A stretch of 64,000 nt of DNA from NCBI GenBank assembly GCA_031292625.1, contig JARLGU010000056.1:28744-92743 (forward strand). Reading direction: 5' to 3'. Below, one piece after another: positions 8,568 through 64,000 of the stretch. Below the pieces are notes generated by a model. It saw only the letters and a program-made list of their open reading frames with translations. It did no database searches and was not told where the DNA came from. The position numbers and the translations under genes were made by a program. The DNA is from Capsulimonadaceae bacterium (GTDB lineage: Bacteria; Armatimonadota; Armatimonadia; Armatimonadales; Capsulimonadaceae). Each line of letters begins with the position of its first letter. Position 1 is the first letter of the stretch.

Positions 8568-9359
8568 ATGGGCGCGAACACGGATAAGGACGATGCGGCG
8601 CAGGTTCCGGTCGACCCCGAGGCGCGCGTGCGGGCGATGTCCCGTCGCGGCTTCGTGATGGCGGGAATTGCCGCCGCCGCGACGCTCGCGGGTTTCGAGG
8701 GGCTCATGCGTGCGCGTGAGGAAGATGGCCTTGCGTGGCCCCTCAGACGAATCTTGCAGGGCAACGAACGCGTGGTGCGGGGAGTCCTTGGCGCGCGGCG
8801 CAGCGCGCCGCTGCTGACCCTGGATCGCGTGACGCTTCCGGCGCGCGTCAACGGCGACCTCGGGCTGGGGGACGACTTCGATTCCGCATCGTGGACGCTG
8901 ACCGTTTCCCCCGCGCTGTCGCCTGACGACGATGCCGACGAATTCACGCTCGACCAGATCATGAGCCTGCCCAAGCATGAGATGATTACCGAACTCCACT
9001 GTATCGAGGGGTGGACCATCGTCCAGCGCTGGGCCGGCGCGCGTTTCTCGGATTTCGTCGCTCGCTATACGCGCTACAAGGACCCGCGCTCTCTCCCGGC
9101 GTATGTGGGCATGTCCACGCCCGACGGCGGTTACTACGTCGGGCTGGATATCGAGGCCGCGATGCATCCGCAGACGCTTCTCTGCTATGAGATGAACGGC
9201 GAGCCGCTCACTCTCGAACACGGCGCGCCGCTTCGCCTCGTGATCCCGGTCAAGTATGGCGTCAAGAACATCAAGCGCATCGGCGAAGTGACGTTCTCGA
9301 ACGCGCGTCCCGACGATTATTGGGCGCAGCAGGGCTACGATTGGTACGCTGGGCTGTAA
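8568..9359 (+). CDS. Molybdopterin-dependent (sulfite oxidase/MsrP-like) oxidoreductase with TAT signal
   Basis: MSRRGFVMAGIAAAATLAG TAT-like signal; ELHCIEGWTIVQRWAGARFSDF typical Cys-containing core. Confidence 0.88.
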   Translation: MGANTDKDDAAQVPVDPEARVRAMSRRGFVMAGIAAAATLAGFEGLMRAREEDGLAWPLRRILQGNERVVRGVLGARRSAPLLTLDRVTLPARVNGDLGLGDDFDSASWTLTVSPALSPDDDADEFTLDQIMSLPKHEMITELHCIEGWTIVQRWAGARFSDFVARYTRYKDPRSLPAYVGMSTPDGGYYVGLDIEAAMHPQTLLCYEMNGEPLTLEHGAPLRLVIPVKYGVKNIKRIGEVTFSNARPDDYWAQQGYDWYAGL

Positions 9360-9383
9360 AGGGTGCGCAATAATCGAGATGCC

Positions 9384-9714
9384 TTGTAAGACGTCTCCCC
9401 GGCCGCCGTGGCCGCTTTTGAACCAGCGTGACGCTGGACCCTTTGTGAGCCGAAGACGGCTCGGTTTACGCTGGGTACATTCCCCGGAGCTTGCTCCGCC
9501 ACCGGCCAGTCCGGAATCTTGATGCCGCGTAGCCTGCTGCGGGAGTAGTTCATTAAGGGCTGGCACGGCGATTTTACTGCTTTACGATGTGCGCTGGGAT
9601 CGGACGCTAACGGCAAAAGGCGGTACGCGTGTTGAGGACTGCTCGTATGCCGCCGTTGTGATTGCGGCGCAGGCAGAGAAGTGCCCAGGCGGCGCGAGCC
9701 GTCCTGAATCTTGT
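9384..9714 (-). repeat. Dispersed TIR repeat, copy A (inverted, with about 125-bp extra internal segment)
   Basis: Right end TTGTAAGACGTCTCCCCGGCCGCCGTGGCC; left end (rc) GATTCAGGACGGCTCGCGCCGCCTGGGC; core GTCCGATCCCAGCGCACATCGTAAAGC on the minus strand. Confidence 0.8.
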
Positions 9715-9759
9715 CCGCGGCATGGCCGTCAATTACACGCACTAAGGACAGTTTTGCCT

Positions 9760-11976
9760 TTACGCCGCATGTTTTTGGGAGTTGCGCGCGGCAACGTGGG
9801 CGTCGTTGAACCGGAACTTGCCGACGATATCCTGCAAGTCGCTCGCTTGCGAGCGCATCGAGTCGCTGGCTTCGGACGCTTCTTCCACGAGGGCGGCGTT
9901 ATGCTGCGTGATCTCTTCCAGTTGGCCAATGGCCTTGTTGACCTGCTCGATGCCGGCCGCCTGCTCCTGTGCAGTCGATGCGATTCGCGATACAATCTGC
10001 GTCACTTGCTCAACGGAGCGGACAATCTCGTTAAGCCGTTCTCCGCTCTTGTGGACAAGTTCGCTTCCGGCGCTGACTTGGTTGACGCTTTCGTTGACCA
10101 GCGTCTTAATCTCCTTGGCTGCCTTAGAACTGCGACTTGCCAGGATGCGCACTTCGGAAGCAACTACCGCAAATCCTTTACCGCGTTCGCCGACGCGCGC
10201 CGCTTCTACGGCTGCGTTGAGTGCAAGCAGGTTGGTTTGGAATGCGATCTCATCGATCACCGTGACAATATCCGCGATGCGACGACTGGAGCCATTGATT
10301 CCATTCATCGATTCTATGGCGCTTGCAACGACTACGCCGCTGCCCACGGCGACACTGCGCGCCTGTTCGGCGAGTTGGTTTGCCTCGACCGCATGTGCCG
10401 CGCTTTGCTTGACTGCGAAGGTCATCTGTTCCATGCTGGCAGCGGTCTTCTCAAGGTTCGACGCCTGTTCGGACGTGCGTCGCGCGAGATCGGCATTGCC
10501 GTCAGCGATCTCGCCAGCGGACGCCGCTATTGTGTTCGACGATCGGCCTGTTAACCCAAGAAGCGTTGCAAAGGCGCTTTGGGCCTTGCCGAACGATTCG
10601 ACCGCGGCGTCGAGGGATGCAAGCATCTGATTGAAGCTTCGCGTGATTTCACCGCACTCGTCGTTTGTAGTAACCAGAATGGGTTGTGCGCTCACCGTGA
10701 GGCGTGACGTTAAATCGCCTTGCTCGAGTTGTCCGATTGCGTGCGTCAGGCTTTTCAACTCGTGGGATTCCAGCGCCCTAAGAGCTTGGGAGACCTGCTT
10801 GAGCGGATTGCTTATCCGGTCCGCAACAACTTGGGCGATCCAGCCGCAGAGCAGCGAAATCAGTGCGCCGGCGATCAAGAGAATCAACATCATCTGCTGC
10901 CTTCCAGACTGCAGATGCGCTTCAAATGCCTGAAACTCTGCTTCGGGCGCGCTCGATACGATAACCCAACTCCATGGCGCGTAGTACGCGATGCGCGCCA
11001 GTTTCATGCTCGGAGAGGCTTCCCCTTCTTCTTGCGAAAGGTATCGCATTGAGGCCAACTCGCCGCTCTTGAGTGAACTTGCCGCCTGAATAATCTTCTG
11101 AATGTATGGCTGGCCCTGAGCGTCCTTGGAATCCCACGCATCTTGACCCTGGCCGAAATGCGAGACGATCCGTCGCCCTTCGTCGTTCTTGAGGCCGCCG
11201 TAAATGGTTAGCCCGCCGGTTTTGCCGATGCGCGTCGCGAGAATTGCGTCGTTAAGCGAAGCAATGCCGTTCTGCGGGACCGCGGCAAAGAGCATGCCGA
11301 TCACGCGCCCGCTTGGATCCTTGATCGGTTCGTAGTTGGAAATGTACCAGGCATTGACGATAAACGCGGGGCCAATGTACGACTTGCCGGATAGGACTGC
11401 GGCAACAACGGGATTGGGAGCGCCGGTTGGGTTCGTGGCTGGGATAAATGTGCCGACAGCTCGCGCTCCGCTTGTTGTAAGGACATTTGTCGCGACCCGC
11501 AGCATGTCGCCTTGTTCGTTCATCCGCTGAAAGATCGTAGCCTTGCATTGCGCGATGCGTTGGACATGATCGACGATCGGCGTTTCGATATTCTTGTCAC
11601 GGTTAACCCCGAGCCACCGGCTGCCAACCAGCATCTGAGGAAGCTGAACGGTTTTGGCAGCCTTTGTAAACTGATTGATTGCTTGCCACTGAACAGCTGC
11701 GTTGCCCGTTCGAGCGCCGCCCGCGGCGTTAAGAAAGTCGTGAGCGAGTCGAAGGTCGTTCTGGACCTCCTGCTGGACGGTTTCTCCCTGCGCGCTGATC
11801 ATGTTGAGAGCGCCAATCGTCGTATGATTAAGATCGTCGTCTACAAGCTTGGCTGCTTCGGCGCTCGACTTCTCGGAAAATAGGACGCTTTGCCATTGTC
11901 CAACTGCAATGAGAATGCCCGATGTTGCGACAATGCCGGCGACGCTCATTAAAAGGATCTTTCGCGAGATCCGCAT
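9760..11976 (-). CDS. Methyl-accepting chemotaxis protein with Cache-type periplasmic domain
   Basis: Signalling hairpin [41 protein letters not shown]; long extracellular region. Confidence 0.93.
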
Positions 11977-12797: not shown

Positions 12798-14591
12798 CTA
12801 GAATTCCTCGAAACTATTGTGCGAGTTTACGACGCGGAGTTTAGGCGTTTTATGCGAAGCGACTTCAACCTCCGTCGCGCTCGAACGCACGGGGGGCGCG
12901 GCCGCCGTCGACATATCGCCGAGATGAACGTTGTCGACCCTGAATCTCTCGACCAGATCCTTAAGCTCACTGGCCTGGTGCGACATCGCCTGGCTGCAGG
13001 CACTCGACTCTTCAACGAGAGCGGCATTTTGCTGGGTTATCTGATCCATCTGGATGACGGCTTTGTTCACCTGGTCAATGCCGGCGGACTGCTCCTGTGC
13101 GGCCGACGAAATGTCGCCCACAATTGTTGCCACGTTACCGACAGCCTCGACGATCCTCTTCAAACGCTCCCCACTCAGATTGACCAGATCCGTCCCCTCC
13201 TGAACCTTCACGACGCTGTCCTGCACCAGGGCTTTGATCTCCTTCGCCGCGCTCGAACTGCGGCTAGCCAGGTTGCGGACTTCAGCGGCGACCACGGCAA
13301 ATCCCTTCCCCTGCTCGCCGACGCGGGCTGCTTCCACCGCCGCATTGAGTGCAAGCAGGTTCGTTTGGAACGCAATTTCATCGATCACGGATACTATATC
13401 CGCGATACGTCGGCTGGACTCATTAATCACGGCCATGGACGTCACCGCATTCGCAACAACCGTCCCGCCATCGGCGGCGACATCGCGCGCATCGATTGCC
13501 AACTCGCTGGCGCGGCGCGCGCTTTGTGCGCTCTGCTTGACGATGCTGGTCATTTCCTCCATGCTGGCGGCGGTCTCTTCCAGGCTGGAGGCCTGCTCCG
13601 ACGTGCGCCCGGACAGATCTTCGTTGCCGGCCGCCAACTCATTCGCGGACCTGGATATCGTCAACGCCGCCGCGGTGGCATTCCCGATCAACTTGGACAA
13701 GGAGGCTTGAGCGTCGCGGAACGAACCAATCGTTGCCTCGGCCTTGTCGATCATCGCGTTCAACGTGACGGCCAGCACTCCGAACTCATCCTTACTGGAA
13801 ACATCGAGTCGCGGAGTTCCTGCTTGCACATGATACGTCAAATCGCCTTGCGCAAGCGCGACAACCCCGTCCTGCAAGTTGGTAAGGCAGATCGTGTCGA
13901 GTGATTGAAGCCGTCCGATTACGGCCGATAGCGACCCGGTGATTGTATTCGTCACGATCGATGCGATCGCGAATCCAAACACGAGCGAGCAGAGCAAAAG
14001 CGCGATGACTGTGAGGCGGCCGGTTCGGAAGATATTTTCGGTGGACGCGTTTAGCCTCGCCCCCGCCGTTTTGTTGGCCTCCGCAGCCTCCTCGATGCGA
14101 TTGCTGATCGCCTTGTATGCGGGAAACGTATCGACCGTAATGACTCGCTCGATCTGAGCCTTCGTCCCTTGCCGTGCGACCGCCTCAATCCTTGGAGTCA
14201 TCCCAACCAAATCGCTCCAGTCCGCGGCGATCTCGTCAGCCGAACGATCGCCCTGCGGACAGGTCGCCCGGTAAGCAGACAAATCTTGATCCGTCTTTGC
14301 CTGGAACTCAGTAAGATTGGACGCCATTACGGCTCTCTGCTGATCGGTCACCGAAAGCGTATAGCGAACCTGATACAGGCGATATTGCTTGTAGTCGCTG
14401 GTAAGCTTAACGAGCGCCGAACTGCCAGAGAGTCCTTGCGCGTAAATCGTCGCGATGGCGACGTGCATCGCCCCCATTCTCTCAACGGCCACGACGCCAG
14501 AAAGCATTGCGAACAAGATGCATGCGCCAAATCCAAGCGAGAGCTTGCGCGAGGCGTTGAGATCCTTAAACCAGTTCATCCATTTCTCCAA
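12798..14591 (-). CDS. Methyl-accepting chemotaxis protein (4HB-like sensor)
   Basis: [43 protein letters not shown]; two TM helices. Confidence 0.93.
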
Positions 14592-35718: not shown

Positions 35719-36894
35719 CTAGACCTTTGCTGTCGCTTCGCCGTGCAATGCCCCGAAAAGCGTCGATTGGCGAACGATGAGATGCGATTGCATTTGCACA
35801 TCCTGCCGCGCCGCAGGATCATCCCGCATCCGCTGCAAGAGCTGGATCGCTTCCTGGCCCATCTGTTGCCACGGCGGCTGCATGGAGCTCAGTCCTGCGT
35901 CTCGCGATTCATGATCGTTGTCGAATCCGACCAGCGCGTAGTCGCTCCCAACGCGCAGACCTCTCTCCCTCGCAACGTCAACGAACTGTACTGCTATCCG
36001 GTCGTTTGCGGCGAGGACGCCATCAAACTCCACGCCTTCATCAAAAACGCGCTCTGCAAATTCACGGGCTTCGCCTTCGTAGTCGACGTCAATCAGCGCG
36101 TTCGGGATATCGCGGGACGCTCGTACGCGAACATCGAGACTATAGTCCGGTCCCGCCGCCTCAATAACCTCTCGCGCGCCCAGGATGCGGCGCTCGGACC
36201 AGGTTGCGACGACCGAGGAAAAGAACACGATCCGGCGACACCCGCAGTCCACAAGGTGCGAGGCCGCGCCGCGACCGGCGTTGACGCTATCGTAGTACAC
36301 CGTCGGAACCGGCAACGGAGCTTCGTCCCAGAGGATCGCCGCCATCGGAACCGGTTTTCGAGAAGCCTGCGCGATGTACTGGAATTCCAGCGGATCCTGT
36401 TCCAGCACGAAGACAATGCTCTCAGCGCCTTGCATCCGAACTTCGTCGACGGCCACGCGCAGGGGAACGTGAGCGCCATCCTGCCGGTACCGGTTGAAAA
36501 ATACCGAGTTCCCGCCCGCAAGCGTCAGCGCCCGCTCCAACGAGTGCATGATGGTCGTTGCTCTCTCGACGCGAACGCCCTCGCCTTTCCAGCTCGGGTA
36601 CACGTACGTGATGATGCCGACCGTGCCGAGCCTGGTCTGGGGAAGCGCGTCAGCTCGTGCAACAAACGTGCCGCGGCCATTTTCTGCTCGCACGAGGCCG
36701 CTCGCCACGAGACCATTCACGGCCTTTTGGATGATAATTGGAGCGACCTTATACTTTGACGCCAGGTCACGCCGGCCCGGCAAGCGCGATCCCACGGGAT
36801 AGGCGCCGTTTTCGATCTTTTGGCGTAAATCCTGGGCGATGTTGTCCGAGATCGACCGCTTCGTACGTATGAGTTCGGCAATCTGAGCTGGCAA
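35719..36894 (-). CDS. GntR-type wHTH plus LacI-type sensor transcriptional regulator
   Basis: [34 protein letters not shown]-terminal periplasmic-binding-like domain [17 protein letters not shown]. Confidence 0.9.
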
Positions 36895-37010
36895 TGGTTT
36901 ACCCGTATCACAAAAGTATTACGGTTCACATTGTATCACGACGTCACAACCGTGTCAAGTATGTGTTACGATTCTTGTCATTGAGTTGTTTGCGAAGCAA
37001 TAAGCGGATG

Positions 37011-37862
37011 CTAAGGTCTCGCGCGCGGCTCGCCTGACGCCTCCCGATATTTGCTCGGCGTCATACCCGTTTCCCGTTTAAACGCACGCGAAAAATAGGA
37101 AACTTCGCCGAATTTCAATCGATCCGCGATCTCACTGACCGAGACGTCTGAGTACGTTAGCAACTCCTTTGCCCGGCGGATGACGCCATTTACGATGAAC
37201 TGCTTGAGAGTTATGCCGGTCGCGCGCCGAAATGCCTTCGATGCCGCCGAAGCCGACATGCCAACTAGCCGAGCAACGGTATCGATGGAGAGTTCCATGG
37301 AGGGACGTTGCTCGACTTCGGTGATTATGGCGCGAAACCGCTCAGTTCGCGCGTACCGGAGGGCCAGCACATCCAGCTCTGCCGGGAGCAGCTTCTGAAT
37401 CGCCACGAAGGCCAGCGCCTCGGCCGCGGCGGACTCGCCGGCTGCCAGCGCATTCAGGATAAGCCCCCGCAACGCGTCATCACGCAGCTGTAAGACGCCT
37501 CCACGCGGATCGAAAAGATCACCGCCCGTTTCATCGTACACGTGGATATGGAACGCGTGCATTTGGCATTCGTAGCGCGTTTCGAATGGCATCCTGGCTG
37601 GCAAGAGGTAGATGGCGGCCGGAGTAAGTGTGTACTTGCGTTCCGTTGCCAAAATACAAGCGTGCCCGCTGAGGGGAAGAAACAAACGGGTCACGACGGG
37701 GGCAGGATGAACATACGACGCGGGAGTCGCGAATGTCGAGCAATGCGTGTCAAGGAAGCGGCACGTCACGACAACGGGCGTGTCGTGATGGCGGAACGCG
37801 TGCCGCATTTCGCTGCTTGGCCCATCGAGCCACTGCCTGCTTTCGTTGACCGTGGTGCGCAT
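37011..37862 (-). CDS. AraC-family transcriptional regulator
   Basis: SASAASKAFRRATGITLKQFIVNGVIRRAKELL...EVSYFSRAFKRETGMTPSKYRE. Confidence 0.93.
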   Translation of the reverse strand: MRTTVNESRQWLDGPSSEMRHAFRHHDTPVVVTCRFLDTHCSTFATPASYVHPAPVVTRLFLPLSGHACILATERKYTLTPAAIYLLPARMPFETRYECQMHAFHIHVYDETGGDLFDPRGGVLQLRDDALRGLILNALAAGESAAAEALAFVAIQKLLPAELDVLALRYARTERFRAIITEVEQRPSMELSIDTVARLVGMSASAASKAFRRATGITLKQFIVNGVIRRAKELLTYSDVSVSEIADRLKFGEVSYFSRAFKRETGMTPSKYREASGEPRARP

Positions 37863-40975: not shown

Positions 40976-42973
40976 CTAGTCCTCGTTCGGAGGCAAGCCG
41001 CGATTTAGTCGTGATAGCGCCTTTTGCACGCTCGCGAGCGTGCGCCGTACACCGGCATCGCCGGGGTTGAGGCGCTGCGCCTTGCTCAGATGGGTGTTTG
41101 CGTCGCCGAGCCGGCCGGCGAGCGACTCCGCTTTGCCCAGGTCGGCGTACCACGATGCATCGTCATCTTCCATCGCCTTCCCCTTGTCGAGCATCTTCTG
41201 AGCTGCTTTCCGTTGCCCCATCTCGCGCAGGACGACGCCCTTACAGATATACGCTGACGCAAGCGAGTCGTCGACCTTGATCTGTTTATTAAACTCGGAC
41301 AGCGCTTTGCGATATTCCTTCATCGCCAGATAGGCGCGGCCACGCCCGTAATGCAATTCGGCGACATTCTTGTCGATTTGGGCGGACTTGTCGAACTCCG
41401 GGAGCGCCGCGCTTGGACGCCCCTCCTCAATGAGCGCGTTCGCAAGTCCCATATGTGCATCGATGAAATCGCTGTTGTATTGGAACGTCTCCAGATACAT
41501 TTCGGCCGCTTCGTGGACCCGTCCGAGCGCCATCAATGACACGGCCGCGTTGTAATAGCCGCGCCAGAGATCCGGGCGCTGCTCTCTTGTCGTGCGATAG
41601 GCGCGCAAGGCAACCGCATGCAGTCCTTCATCCTGATAGTAGTTCCCGACATCCACAAGCGCGATAGCGCTGTACGGATTTACGGCAAGCTCCTGCTTCA
41701 TGATCGTGATCGTGTTTTTCCAGTCGGCGCACCGGGCCGAAGAAAGGCCGCTCCAGGCAGCCAGTACGACCACCGGGACGATGTACAACCACGGCGTGCG
41801 CAGTCGCGTGACCAGCTTGGCAACGAGCAGAGCCGGTCCGATCATCGCCAGGTATGCATACCGGTCGGTTACGGTCGAGTAGTATTGGAACGCGAACGGG
41901 ACGAGTCCGAGGTTTGGCGCGAGGCATACCAGGCTAATCAGCGACGCCGTCAGAATCCAGGGACGTTTTCGCGACAAATAGAACGCGAGACCGATCAGAG
42001 CCGCCGGGATAATCCAGAGCTCGAAGCTGCGCAAGTCCGAGAGAACCACGCGTGGCGTCCGTCCGTAGTCGATCGCAAGGTTGATCGGCGCAAAAAACTT
42101 TTCGAGATAGAACGTTAGCGCGTCTCCCGCGATGAATGGCCGAAGGTACGGAGCAGTGAGCGCCGAGTGCATTATGTATTGGTCATTGCGCGCGACGTAG
42201 ATGAAAAGCAGGCTGACGAGCGCCCACGGTGCAAACTCCTGTACATATTGGCGCAGCGATCGCCGGTGGATCAAACTGTCAATTAGCGGGATCAAGACCG
42301 GATATACGACCGCTGTCGGCTTTGTAAGCAGCGCGAGCACGAAGCAAAGAAACGAGCCTGCAAATACGCCCAACGCCGACCATTGTGCGCGGCGGTCCAG
42401 CGGTTCTCCGGCTTCCTCCACGATGTCCCACGCCTTGACGTAGCTTGCGAGGCTGATAAAGCCAAGCATCGCCGAGAGCTGTCCGCGAAGTTCGGATACC
42501 CATGCGACGGACTCGACCTGCAGCGGGTGAAGGGCGAACAGCAGGCAACCTACCAGGGCTGGGACATCCTTCTTGACGATACGGCGCAGCAGAAAGAACA
42601 AGAAAAGCGCGTTGCCAGTGTGGAGCACAATGTTCGCGATGTGGAAGACGTGCGGGTTAAAGGGCGCGCCCGTTTGCGTGAACCGCTCGGCGTGCGGCGT
42701 TTTCGAGATGAGGCAAAGCAGAGCGAAGCCCGTATAAGCGAACGGCACGTAGAGCTGCTCGTATGGATGGCGCCAAAGATAGACCAGCCCTTGCCAGGTT
42801 GTAGGATTCAGATGCGGGTTCGCGAATGTATGCACCTGGTCGTCGTACTGGATGAAGTCGCAGCTCGCGAGGGGCGCGAATGTCGACGCGCACGCGACGA
42901 TGACCACGGCGGCGCAGACAATTAGCCGTGTTGTGACAGGCGATATTGATCGCATTCGAGCGAGGAATGACAT
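40976..42973 (-). CDS. Polytopic TPR protein, TMTC/GT-C O-mannosyltransferase-like
   Basis: FIQYDDQVHTFANPHL; LHPLQVESVAWVSELRGQLSAMLGF; C-terminal TPR repeats. Confidence 0.8.
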   Translation of the reverse strand: MSFLARMRSISPVTTRLIVCAAVVIVACASTFAPLASCDFIQYDDQVHTFANPHLNPTTWQGLVYLWRHPYEQLYVPFAYTGFALLCLISKTPHAERFTQTGAPFNPHVFHIANIVLHTGNALFLFFLLRRIVKKDVPALVGCLLFALHPLQVESVAWVSELRGQLSAMLGFISLASYVKAWDIVEEAGEPLDRRAQWSALGVFAGSFLCFVLALLTKPTAVVYPVLIPLIDSLIHRRSLRQYVQEFAPWALVSLLFIYVARNDQYIMHSALTAPYLRPFIAGDALTFYLEKFFAPINLAIDYGRTPRVVLSDLRSFELWIIPAALIGLAFYLSRKRPWILTASLISLVCLAPNLGLVPFAFQYYSTVTDRYAYLAMIGPALLVAKLVTRLRTPWLYIVPVVVLAAWSGLSSARCADWKNTITIMKQELAVNPYSAIALVDVGNYYQDEGLHAVALRAYRTTREQRPDLWRGYYNAAVSLMALGRVHEAAEMYLETFQYNSDFIDAHMGLANALIEEGRPSAALPEFDKSAQIDKNVAELHYGRGRAYLAMKEYRKALSEFNKQIKVDDSLASAYICKGVVLREMGQRKAAQKMLDKGKAMEDDDASWYADLGKAESLAGRLGDANTHLSKAQRLNPGDAGVRRTLASVQKALSRLNRGLPPNED

Positions 42974-43022: not shown

Positions 43023-44834
43023 TTACTTTCGCTGTTCGCGCGCCAGCGCTTGGCGTATGCTCAGCGCGGTCCGGTCGGCGGGGTCGATTGCGAGGGCCTT
43101 GGCGATACTTGCGCTGGCGTCGTCCACGTGTCCGGTCATGGCCTGTGCGAGCGCGAGATTAGTGTACCACGAGGTTGTAGGCCTGCCGCTCGCAATGGCC
43201 TGCTGCAATACCGGGATCGCTTCGGCGGGGCGGCGAAGCTCGATTAGCACGATGCCTTTGTTGACGCGCGCAGGCGGATATCCGGTAAGCGCGATCTCGT
43301 TGTCGAACTCCGCAATTGCATCGGTCAGGTCGCCTATGTTCATCAGGCCGATCCCCCGGTCGTAGTGCGCCTTGCGCAACGTGGGTTCGATCGCGATTGC
43401 ATCGTCATATTCGGTCAGAGCCTCAGCGGTCCGTCCTTCGTCGACCAGAGCATTGCCGAGGTCCAGGTGGGCGAGGCTGCTTCGCGGATCCAACTGAATT
43501 TCCCGTCGAAGATAGGCTTCGGCCTTGCGCGGCTCGCCATTCTTAACGTACGCATTCCCAATGTTGACGAGACCGATCGAGCTGTTCGGGTTAACGCCGA
43601 GCTCCGCGCGCATGATCGAGATCGTGCTCTTCCACGCGCCGCAACGACCGTGGGCGAGCGCGCCCAGCATGACGAGAGCGATTCCGGCAACCGCAAACGG
43701 CCATCGCACGCGGGTTTTTGCGAGGGCAACGGCGAGTGCCAGCGCAGGACCGAACAGGGAGAGATATGCGTACCGGTCGGCAACAACGGAGTGGCTCTCG
43801 AAAGCGAACGGCGCAAGGCCCAGCACGGGCAGCAGCCCGGCTGCCCAGACGATCGCCGCGGCGGCAGCCCACGGCCAGCGCTTACGCGCGAACCATGCGC
43901 AGACGACGGCCGCTATCACTCCGAGCGCCTCGGCCCAGATCCGCGGCCGCGAGAGGATGACGGACGGTGTTCGCCCATAATCGACCGCGAGGCCGAGCGG
44001 CGCAATCGTCTTGCCCGCGTAGAACGCCAGCGCACCGGCGGCGACCAGCGGACGGCGCGCGATCGGAGCCAGCGCTGCGGGCGGGATCGTCTGTACTCCG
44101 CGCGTCAGCAGCAGGAAAACGGCTGCGATCGCGAGCCACGGACCTATCTCGATGACGTATTGCTTCCATGATCGCCGGTTGATCAGCGCGTCGACCGGTA
44201 CGGCAATCAGCGGCAGCGCGACCGCGGATGGCTTGGCGAGCAGAGCCAGCACGAAGAGAAAGGTCGCCAGCGCGTAACGGGGCCATCCTTGTTTCGTGTA
44301 AGCCGTCAGGCTCGCAAGACAGAGGAGCGCCGCGAGTAGCCCGCGAAGCTCCGAGATCCAAGCGACGGATTCCACCTGAAGCGGATGCAGGGCGAACAGC
44401 AGGGCTCCCGTAAGCGCTGGCAAATCCTTCGTGACGATGCGGCGCAGGAGAAAGAAGACGAGCAGCGCGCTGCACGCGTGTAGCGTAATGTTGGTCACGT
44501 GAAATACGTGAGGGTTGAATGGGGCGCCTGTCTGCGTGAAACGCTCGGGGTGGGGCGCTTGGGCGAGTACGGCCAGCAGGGCGAAAAGCGTATAGGCGAG
44601 CGGGACATAGAGCTGCTCGTATGGGTGCTGCCAGAGGTGGGCCAGCCCCGCCCATGACGGCGGGTTCAGAAAAGGGTTCTCGAATGTGTGAAGCTGATCG
44701 TCAAATAGGATGAAATCGAATCCCGCTGACTGTCCGAATACGAGCGCACAGGCGACGACAATCATCGCGCAGCACACGGCAACGCGTTGCGTGTGGGGCT
44801 GTAGTTTCCTCGATGTAAGCGCGGAAGCTTTCAT
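43023..44834 (-). CDS. Polytopic TPR protein, TMTC/GT-C-like; tandem paralog
   Basis: FILFDDQLHTFENPFL; LHPLQVESVAWISELRGLLAALLCL; TPR repeats. Confidence 0.8.
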   Translation of the reverse strand: MKASALTSRKLQPHTQRVAVCCAMIVVACALVFGQSAGFDFILFDDQLHTFENPFLNPPSWAGLAHLWQHPYEQLYVPLAYTLFALLAVLAQAPHPERFTQTGAPFNPHVFHVTNITLHACSALLVFFLLRRIVTKDLPALTGALLFALHPLQVESVAWISELRGLLAALLCLASLTAYTKQGWPRYALATFLFVLALLAKPSAVALPLIAVPVDALINRRSWKQYVIEIGPWLAIAAVFLLLTRGVQTIPPAALAPIARRPLVAAGALAFYAGKTIAPLGLAVDYGRTPSVILSRPRIWAEALGVIAAVVCAWFARKRWPWAAAAAIVWAAGLLPVLGLAPFAFESHSVVADRYAYLSLFGPALALAVALAKTRVRWPFAVAGIALVMLGALAHGRCGAWKSTISIMRAELGVNPNSSIGLVNIGNAYVKNGEPRKAEAYLRREIQLDPRSSLAHLDLGNALVDEGRTAEALTEYDDAIAIEPTLRKAHYDRGIGLMNIGDLTDAIAEFDNEIALTGYPPARVNKGIVLIELRRPAEAIPVLQQAIASGRPTTSWYTNLALAQAMTGHVDDASASIAKALAIDPADRTALSIRQALAREQRK

Positions 44835-44892
44835 TATTTGTAGGTCTTTCGCTCAGAATGTGCGTAATCTATCGGCGTTGCGAGAAAGATTC

Positions 44893-45076
44893 AGGACGGC
44901 TCGTGCCGCCGGGGCATTTTTTTTACGCGCCTCGTTCACGGCGTAGATCGACAAGGCCGCGTCAACACGCGTACGGCTTTTTGCCGCCAGCGTCCGATCC
45001 AAGCGCACATCGTTGAGCGGCGAAAGCGCTGTGACGACCCTTTGCGAAAAAAGGCCCCGGCGGCCTGAGCCGTCCT
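44893..45076 (+). repeat. Dispersed TIR repeat, copy B (cleanest inverted termini)
   Basis: Left AGGACGGCTC-gt-GCCGCCGGGGC, right GCCCCGGCGGC-ct-GAGCCGTCCT: 21/23 complementary. Confidence 0.85.
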
Positions 45077-45288
45077 AACTCTTTACCGCGCGCATCTAAA
45101 GCGAAAGTCCCATTTAGATAACTTTTGAACGGTGGTATAAAAGCCGCTTGCCGAGCAGAGGTCGCCTGCGCCGCTGACGGCAACGTACGCGCCGCGCCCG
45201 CAGTCCATTGTCCCCAAACGCGAGTTTTCACTCCTTCCCGCCCTATTCAGGCAGGCGTTCGCCGCTGGGGTATACTAGACGCTAAATT

Positions 45289-55609: not shown

Positions 55610-55792
55610 TCTCCGTGGCCGCAGGACTATTTTGCCCGCGCCCCGTTCACGGCGTCGATCGGCAAGGCCGCGTCGACACGCATACGGCCTTTTGCCGCCA
55701 GCGTCCGATCCCAGCGCACATCGTAAAGCGGTGAAATCGCTGTGACGGCCCTTTTTCAAAAACGGCCCCGGCGGCCGGGGAGCCGTCCTAAA
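55610..55792 (+). repeat. Dispersed TIR repeat, copy C (left terminus degenerate)
   Basis: Core CGTTCACGGCGTCGATCGGCAAGGCCGCGTCGACACG...right end GGCCCCGGCGGCCGGGGAGCCGTCCTAAA. Confidence 0.8.
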
Positions 55793-55834
55793 GGGCAGGT
55801 GAGAAAGCGAGTCATTAATCGGCGTTGCGAGAAA

Positions 55835-56017
55835 GATTCAGGACGGCTCGTGCCGCCGGGGCATTTTTTTGTACGCGCCTCGTTCACGGCGTCGATCGGC
55901 AAGGCCGCGTCAACCGCGTACGGCGTTTGTAGCTAACTTCCGATAGCAACACGTACCGCGAATTCACGGAAGCGCTGCGCCGAAAGCGGCCACGGCGGCC
56001 GGGAAGCCGTCTTACAA
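55835..56017 (+). repeat. Dispersed TIR repeat, copy D (tandem with C)
   Basis: GATTCAGGACGGCTCGTGCCGCCGGGGCATTTTTTT...GGCCACGGCGGCCGGGAAGCCGTCTTACAA. Confidence 0.82.
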
Positions 56018-56025
56018 GGCCTTTC

Positions 56026-63496: not shown

Positions 63497-63561
63497 GTGA
63501 AAGTCGTTCGGAGCCCACGCGGCGAAGAGCGTACGGCCATTAGCCGGCGCTGCGAGTACAA

Positions 63562-63757
63562 GATTCAAGACGGCTCGTGCCGCCGGGGCACTTTTTTGCT
63601 CGCGCCTCGTTCACGGCGGCGATCGGCAGGGCCGCGTCAACACGCGTACGGCGCTTTGCTTGCTACGGCCGATTGCAGCGCACATCGTGAAGCCATGAAA
63701 TCGCTGTGACGGCCCTTTTCCAAAAACGGCCACGGCGGCCGGGGAGCCGTCTTACAA
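63562..63757 (+). repeat. Dispersed TIR repeat, copy E
   Basis: GATTCAAGACGGCTCGTGCCGCCGGGGCACTTTTTT...GGCCACGGCGGCCGGGGAGCCGTCTTACAA. Confidence 0.85.
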
Positions 63758-63804
63758 TGCCTTTCGATTCTAAGGGGGTAGTTTAATCGGCGCTGCGAGT
63801 ACAA

Positions 63805-64000
63805 GATTCAAGACGGCTCGTGCCGCCGGGGCATCTTTTTGTCCGCGCCGCGTTCACGGCGGCGATTTACGATGCTGCGTCAACACGCGTACGGCCTTTT
63901 GCCTGCTACGGCCAATTGCAGCGCGTATCGGGAAGCTGTGAATGCGGTGTGACGGCCCTTTTCCAAAAACGGCCACGGCGGCCGGGGAGCCGTCTTGCAA
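63805..64000 (+). repeat. Dispersed TIR repeat, copy F (tandem with E, reaches the window edge)
   Basis: GATTCAAGACGGCTCGTGCCGCCGGGGCATCTTTTT...GGCCACGGCGGCCGGGGAGCCGTCTTGCAA; start offset 243 bp from E. Confidence 0.85.

Follow-up and report, generated by a model that had tools for sequence, protein, structure and literature searches.

The window, by which is meant the whole 64,000-nucleotide stretch that was analysed (C23:28744-92743), carries six copies of a family of short, gene-less mobile elements which numbers roughly 200-300 in a single genome. The family is real; its kind, the IS5-type MITE, is already known, and both the family and its combination of features appear to be new. It probably represents a new IS5-type MITE family, with BOX-like modules, that acts or has acted as a portable two-way terminator. 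Few MITE families have been characterised outside well-studied genera, and the spread of a terminator by transposition, followed by its retention by the host, can now be tested directly.

The genome that holds the window comprises 5.77 Mb in 65 contigs. The left-arm pattern of the family was matched 178 times genome-wide, against two matches in a reversed control, and a DNA search of the genome returned 240 candidates, 40 of which were scored. Profile searching of 1.848 Mb of the genome, a sample built from separate stretches, gave 183 segments in 124 loci, and the large contigs (1.09 Mb) held 54 loci, approximately 49 per Mb. Extrapolation yields approximately 280 loci, which is an upper guess because some of the sampled contigs were picked for the copies they hold; 178 is the safer count. 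In the window, the left-arm 21-mer with three mismatches allowed was matched six times against 0.01 expected in shuffled sequence, and these copies are not chance occurrences. An earlier model interpretation of the DNA (the sequence-only reading) had described a six-copy family; all six copies are present in the window and all six are intergenic, as it claimed, but they are a small part of the 178 matches.

No copies of the repeat were detected in 60 relatives, among which six share the family and 12 the order of the host but none its genus, or in phage collections, plasmid collections or IMG/VR. The exact 21-mer was absent from 85,488 GTDB species apart from two matches, in a Rhodobacteraceae MAG and in Alloalcanivorax, which were rejected as chance since they lie in coding-like DNA with no T-run or repeat around them. 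The only Rfam match at gathering score in the window was to a tRNA, with none for the repeat family. Contig breaks were observed at or near copies at the window end (64000, equal to C23:92743), at the starts of C20 and C28 and the ends of C21 and C33, and on C14, C32, C48, C53 and C65. Because so many contigs break there, the assembly probably fails at family copies, and module numbers may be collapsed.

When 42 copies were aligned with their flanks, similarity was found to run about 40 bp outward past the 23-bp arms on each side, to an outer inverted repeat at the element ends of the form TNA-GAGYGTGTGTAA...TTACACACGCTC-TNA. The arms, which had been taken for terminal inverted repeats of about 23 bp, are therefore subterminal and lie inside the true ends; their complementarity at 21 of 23 positions in copy B was borne out by direct reading. 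The 5' flank ATCGGCGYTGCGAG reported for copies B, D, E and F is indeed shared, but it belongs to the element, being contained in the spacer between outer end and arm. This corrects an easy reading error: a MITE may have its most conserved inverted repeat inside its actual ends. The 15-mer TTAGAGYGTGTGTAA takes in the target as well; it had 123 matches in the genome against 16 in the control, with no excess in 25 relatives. Including its target duplications, the basic element measures about 262 bp, of which 256 bp lie between them, and the elements are mostly 234-718 bp in length and lack a transposase. The features assigned in the window are listed in Table 1.

Table 1. Coordinates of family copies and their parts in the window.
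Feature	Position	Strand	Basis or remark
Target-site duplication TAA, left of copy A	9357..9359	+	Doubles as the stop codon of the molybdopterin oxidoreductase gene upstream
Copy A, full element, degenerate right end	9360..9742	-	HMM segments 9367-9423 and 9540-9743; ends read directly
Target-site duplication TAA, right of copy A	9743..9745	+	Sequence reading
Copy B	44856..45096	+	Alignment and HMM; right outer end degenerate
Copy B left outer end GAATGTGCGTAA	44856-44867	+	Sequence alignment
Copy B left subterminal arm (left TIR of the sequence-only reading)	44893..44915	+	
Copy B inward terminator-like hairpin GTGCCGCCGGGGCAT, then T-run	44903..44924	+	Terminator scan
Copy B inward terminator-like hairpin AGGCCGCCGGGGCCT, then T-run	45044..45066	-	Terminator scan
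Copy B right subterminal arm (right TIR of the sequence-only reading)	45054..45076	+	
Copy C, degenerate or replaced in its left arm and left end	55621..55792	+	HMM
Copy D, directly after C	55803..56025	+	HMM; right outer end cut short at the next gene's stop codon
Copy E, missing its right outer end where it joins F	63527..63773	+	HMM
Copy E left inward terminator-like hairpin GTGCCGCCGGGGCAC and T6	63577..63598	+	Terminator scan
Copy E right inward terminator-like hairpin CGGCCGCCGTGGCCG and T5	63719..63741	-	Terminator scan
Copy F	63777..64000	+	HMM; stops at contig end (C23:92743)

Copies C and D, and E and F, form adjacent fused pairs. Copy A had been placed at about 9384-9714 in inverted orientation; it is present, but its outer ends extend to 9360-9742 and are flanked by TAA on both sides. 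Its interior contains about 115 bp of foreign sequence (about 9424-9539) made up of several short palindromes (CCAGCGTGACGCTGG, GAGCCGAAGACGGCTC, CGGAGCTTGCTCCG), and the CCAGCGTGACGCTGG-type pattern has 10 matches in 1.85 Mb, both strands counted. On the right side of copy B (window 44892-45110) the usual arm flank is replaced by CTAACTCTTTACYGCGCGCATCYAAAG, which also occurs on the left side of the element at C39:14006-14222 (locus L010) and suggests subfamilies or arm exchange. The insertion sequence at C41:1-1118 (locus L077), which has TAGGACTTTCGCTT/AAGCGAAAGTCCTA as its ends and a 368-residue DDE protein, and 13 matches of AAGCGAAAGTCC in 1.85 Mb, one of them adjoining copy B at window positions 45097-45112, probably represent another small-element family. 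Coding DNA of the window also contains two direct-repeat pairs with units of about 280-300 bp, each pair 73% identical, at 10084-10362 / 13212-13490 and at 42450-42749 / 44308-44607, the latter within or beside a TPR-repeat protein gene.

Target duplications were counted in 72 elements with both outer ends recognisable. Identical 3-mers flank 26 of the 72, and 24 of these 26 are TNA (TTA in nine, TAA in eight, TCA in five and TGA in two); registers shifted by 1-6 bp gave zero to four identical 3-mers. The TAA/TAA of copy A, read by eye, is one more such duplication. That no more than 26 of the 72 keep an identical 3-bp flank counts against the preferred reading. Insertion into a recognisable site is seen at C24:36679-37119, where an element is nested in a copy of a second repeat family: the copies of that family on C19, C20, C33, C38 and C58 are continuous at the insertion site and carry the target once, and the nested insertion has one extra base at its right junction. 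In addition, the paralogous locus C28:8047-8277 (73% identical) lacks the element present at C28:6177-6363. Three-bp TNA duplications and empty sites are the marks of cut-and-paste DDE transposition, and transposition is concluded from the duplications together with the copy nested in a second family that is uninterrupted elsewhere. That the elements are MITEs, i.e. non-autonomous DNA transposons, is strongly indicated. The sequence-only reading had already proposed a MITE without an internal transposase, moved in trans, and the TNA duplications, the empty site and the conserved outer ends uphold this; its other suggestion, amplification by recombination, falls because recombination alone cannot account for the target duplications. 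The second family has similar outer ends and a different interior (TTCTTGGTCGCTKCGCTCCAGG...CTCCGAATTCTTTATTCGTATTGCTCGGCTCTATTGCATGGAGGAGCCG), and is sometimes recombined with the first. Its loci include C33:115287-115536 (L064), C46:66448-66763 (L036), C58:129925-130169 (L128), C38:115005-115289 (L105) and C24 around 36600-37150 (L126).

Directly inside the left end is the hairpin GTGCCGCCGGGGCA-T6, and directly inside the right end, on the other strand, CGGCCGCCGTGGCCG-T5. These short hairpins have a folding energy of about -9 kcal/mol, and the terminator scan of the window detects them. Folds of the longer 42-nt arm segments were not better than those of shuffled sequence. Under a relaxed criterion, inward terminator-like signals are present at 55% of left ends and 80% of right ends, and a G+C-rich hairpin followed by a T-run, as in a Rho-independent terminator, is found at one or both ends of 91% of elements; outward signals occur at 3-6%. 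The relaxed background is 3.6% in gene middles and 8.2% after stop codons without an element; under a strict criterion the genome has no enrichment after stop codons (0.5%, the same as mid-gene). Set against these values, the 91% makes the elements far and away the richest source of terminator-like signals in the genome. Against a terminator role, the stems are short (5 bp), the left stem often needs a G-U pair, and enrichment of such signals after stop codons is itself weak genome-wide (8.2% versus 3.6%). Two pairs of the right stem change together, from C-G/G-C to T-A/T-A, in 12 copies and beyond all shuffles; this covariation was dropped as independent evidence, as one inherited change or left-right conversion could suffice.

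As the hairpin and T-run inside each end read inward, transcription arriving from either side would stop within the element. Nucleotide diversity (pi) is 0.04-0.11 in the left arms and hairpins, against 0.21-0.29 in the module and 0.25-0.39 in the spacer. In 40 copies without a recognisable outer end, pi is 0.12 in the arm and 0.11 in the hairpin versus 0.29 in the module and 0.39 in the spacer, and where the module by itself was used to find copies, 66 of 96 have the arm as the better conserved part. Because the arms stay conserved in copies lacking outer ends, these values suggest that arms and hairpins are retained after insertion, although detection bias or gene conversion could partly explain them. 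With the hairpin arms kept, many copies would then serve neighbouring genes as intrinsic terminators, and a host terminator role is, judging from these sequence features, probable for many copies.

Position relative to genes was determined with a simple codon-usage gene finder, which called 84% of the DNA as coding. Predicted genes take in just 1.1% of the bases of elements. The median distance of elements is 46 bp to gene 3' ends versus 162 bp to 5' ends, and elements occupy 11.9% of convergent, 7.3% of divergent and 4.5% of co-directional gaps. Within co-directional gaps the median element is 40 bp from the upstream stop versus 124 bp from the downstream start (p = 0.002). This enrichment at 3' ends is also expected from purifying selection against insertions in promoters and operons, as has been argued for pneumococcal repeats and IS elements (PMC3049150). 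Ten of 190 element ends coincide exactly with a stop codon whose gene reads into the element, as does copy A, where the molybdopterin oxidoreductase gene ends at 9359. Read on one strand or the other, any TNA is TAA or TGA, and since it is duplicated, insertion at a stop-codon TNA restores the stop. On a rough estimate, the peak of ten ends at offset 0 is largely what TNA targeting alone predicts.

A stronger claim could be made, namely that a genome otherwise poor in intrinsic terminators draws them mainly from this mobile element, with each insertion at a gene end restoring the stop codon by duplicating its TNA target and putting a working inward terminator directly behind it, which selection then keeps; we regard this as tentative and rather doubtful. 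It is quite possible, if short of our preferred reading, that the elements are purely selfish MITEs with no present host role, whose hairpins are leftovers of a parent IS in which they once barred outside transcription from the transposase gene, and whose positions at gene ends are simply tolerated sites. The same bias to convergent gaps is seen in pneumococcal IS elements, RUP and BOX (PMC3049150), and TNA specificity alone would put insertions at stops at roughly the observed frequency given the TNA sites nearby; the conservation of arms and hairpins in copies without a recognisable outer end, which are probably immobile, speaks against it. Selection for transposition would also conserve the subterminal arms if they were transposase binding sites and not terminators, and their inverted, subterminal position and standing as the best conserved part of the element would suit such a function. 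We consider this improbable, as arm conservation persists in copies without outer ends and the T-runs, which binding sites would not need, face inward at both ends.

Between the ends with their terminator-like hairpins, the element has a modular interior. Longer copies (346-718 bp) extend the basic element by between one and five further 93-bp modules, and the palindromic linker that joins them, CCGGTCACGGACCGG, is absent from the short form; lengths of 262, 355, 448, 540 and 718 bp were seen. With only ungapped modules counted, 64 elements in the sample have a single module and 34 have two to five. The interior thus has an A-(B)n-C layout of left part, at least one 93-bp module and right part. 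Modules of one element are barely more alike than modules of different elements (0.88 versus 0.83), and the best match lies in the same element for 12 of 86 modules only; most multi-module forms therefore look inherited or exchanged and not freshly expanded in place. A module equals 31 codons with one frame open in 144 of 150 modules, and an ABC-transporter gene at C41:3233-5669 (locus L138) reads through four modules in frame, its protein having a C-terminal tail of 31-residue repeats (RASFTAVIYDASSTRVRPFAASVRRSRTGLA). That modules are translated, the element carrying or donating a 31-residue peptide repeat, is nevertheless very unlikely: the synonymous excess in the open frame is not significant (reached by 16 of 200 shuffles), differences in the length of the upstream T-run break the frame, and predicted genes leave 99% of element bases uncovered.

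The source of the transposase was sought within the genome. Searches with PF13586 for an IS5-type transposase gave no match, and none of six PF01609 matches is flanked by family ends. A PF13340 (DUF4096) match at C58:136991 was rejected because it lies within a DJ-1/PfpI-like gene and in the wrong frame. No paired outer ends enclosing 0.7-3.5 kb of DNA, as a parent insertion sequence would have, were found. The parent transposon may be extinct, located in an unsampled part of the genome, or of another Pfam family. A TNA target combined with ends starting GAG is what we take to mark the IS427 and IS1031 groups of the IS5 family, TNA being a typical target of these groups (ISfinder), and the family has both. 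We are moderately confident that the transposase was of IS5 type (IS427/IS1031-like or PIF/Harbinger-like), an assignment drawn from the ends and the target duplication; no transposase with these ends was found. Such a DDE transposase, supplied in trans, would cut at the outer ends GAGYGTGTGTAA/TTACACACGCTC, and the element would be pasted into a TNA trinucleotide which is thereby duplicated. The search which the sequence-only reading had called for, for a full-length transposon or REP-associated transposase with the family termini, yielded neither, and its BIME-type alternative, in which REP/BIME palindromes are moved by a RAYT (Y1) transposase, is scarcely credible: the repeats are intergenic, palindromic and partly in fused pairs and the genome has one Y1 gene, but there is no family copy in the 3.3-kb locus of that gene, defined outer inverted ends together with TNA duplications are typical of DDE transposition, and no REP/BIME unit is known to produce such duplications.

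Among known systems, the family resembles the IS427 and IS1031 groups of IS5, and eukaryotic PIF/Harbinger, in its GAG-starting ends and short A/T-rich target duplications; the IS5 members ISPg1 and ISNme1 also have ends starting GAG (PMC4596501). For the IS427 group the published duplications measure 2 or 4 bp (PMC3281130), those of the family 3 bp, and unlike IS5 elements the family has no transposase bearing its ends in the genome searched. The BrickBuilt MITE of Porphyromonas gingivalis (PMC4596501) similarly has IS5-like ends starting GAG, a variable internal tandem array and exclusively intergenic positions, but has 19 copies, 23-nt repeats and duplications of variable length, whereas the family numbers 178 or more copies, is built with 93-bp modules and consistently duplicates a 3-bp TNA. 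SPRITE of Streptococcus pneumoniae is likewise a small dispersed repeat near gene 3' ends that resembles a Rho-independent terminator, and has been proposed as a co-opted terminator (PMC3049150); it consists of one long hairpin, whereas the family pairs two short inward hairpins, one at each end of a larger mobile element. With pneumococcal BOX the family shares a high intergenic copy number, fixed outer parts with variable tandem modules (boxA-boxBn-boxC) and over-representation between convergent genes (PMC3049150), a likeness of layout as described there, with no sequence relation established. The 93-bp module with its palindromic linker, the TNA duplications and the inward terminator-like hairpins at both ends set the family apart from BOX. 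Three features known separately, IS5-like ends, BOX-like modules and SPRITE-like hairpins, are thus joined in one family.
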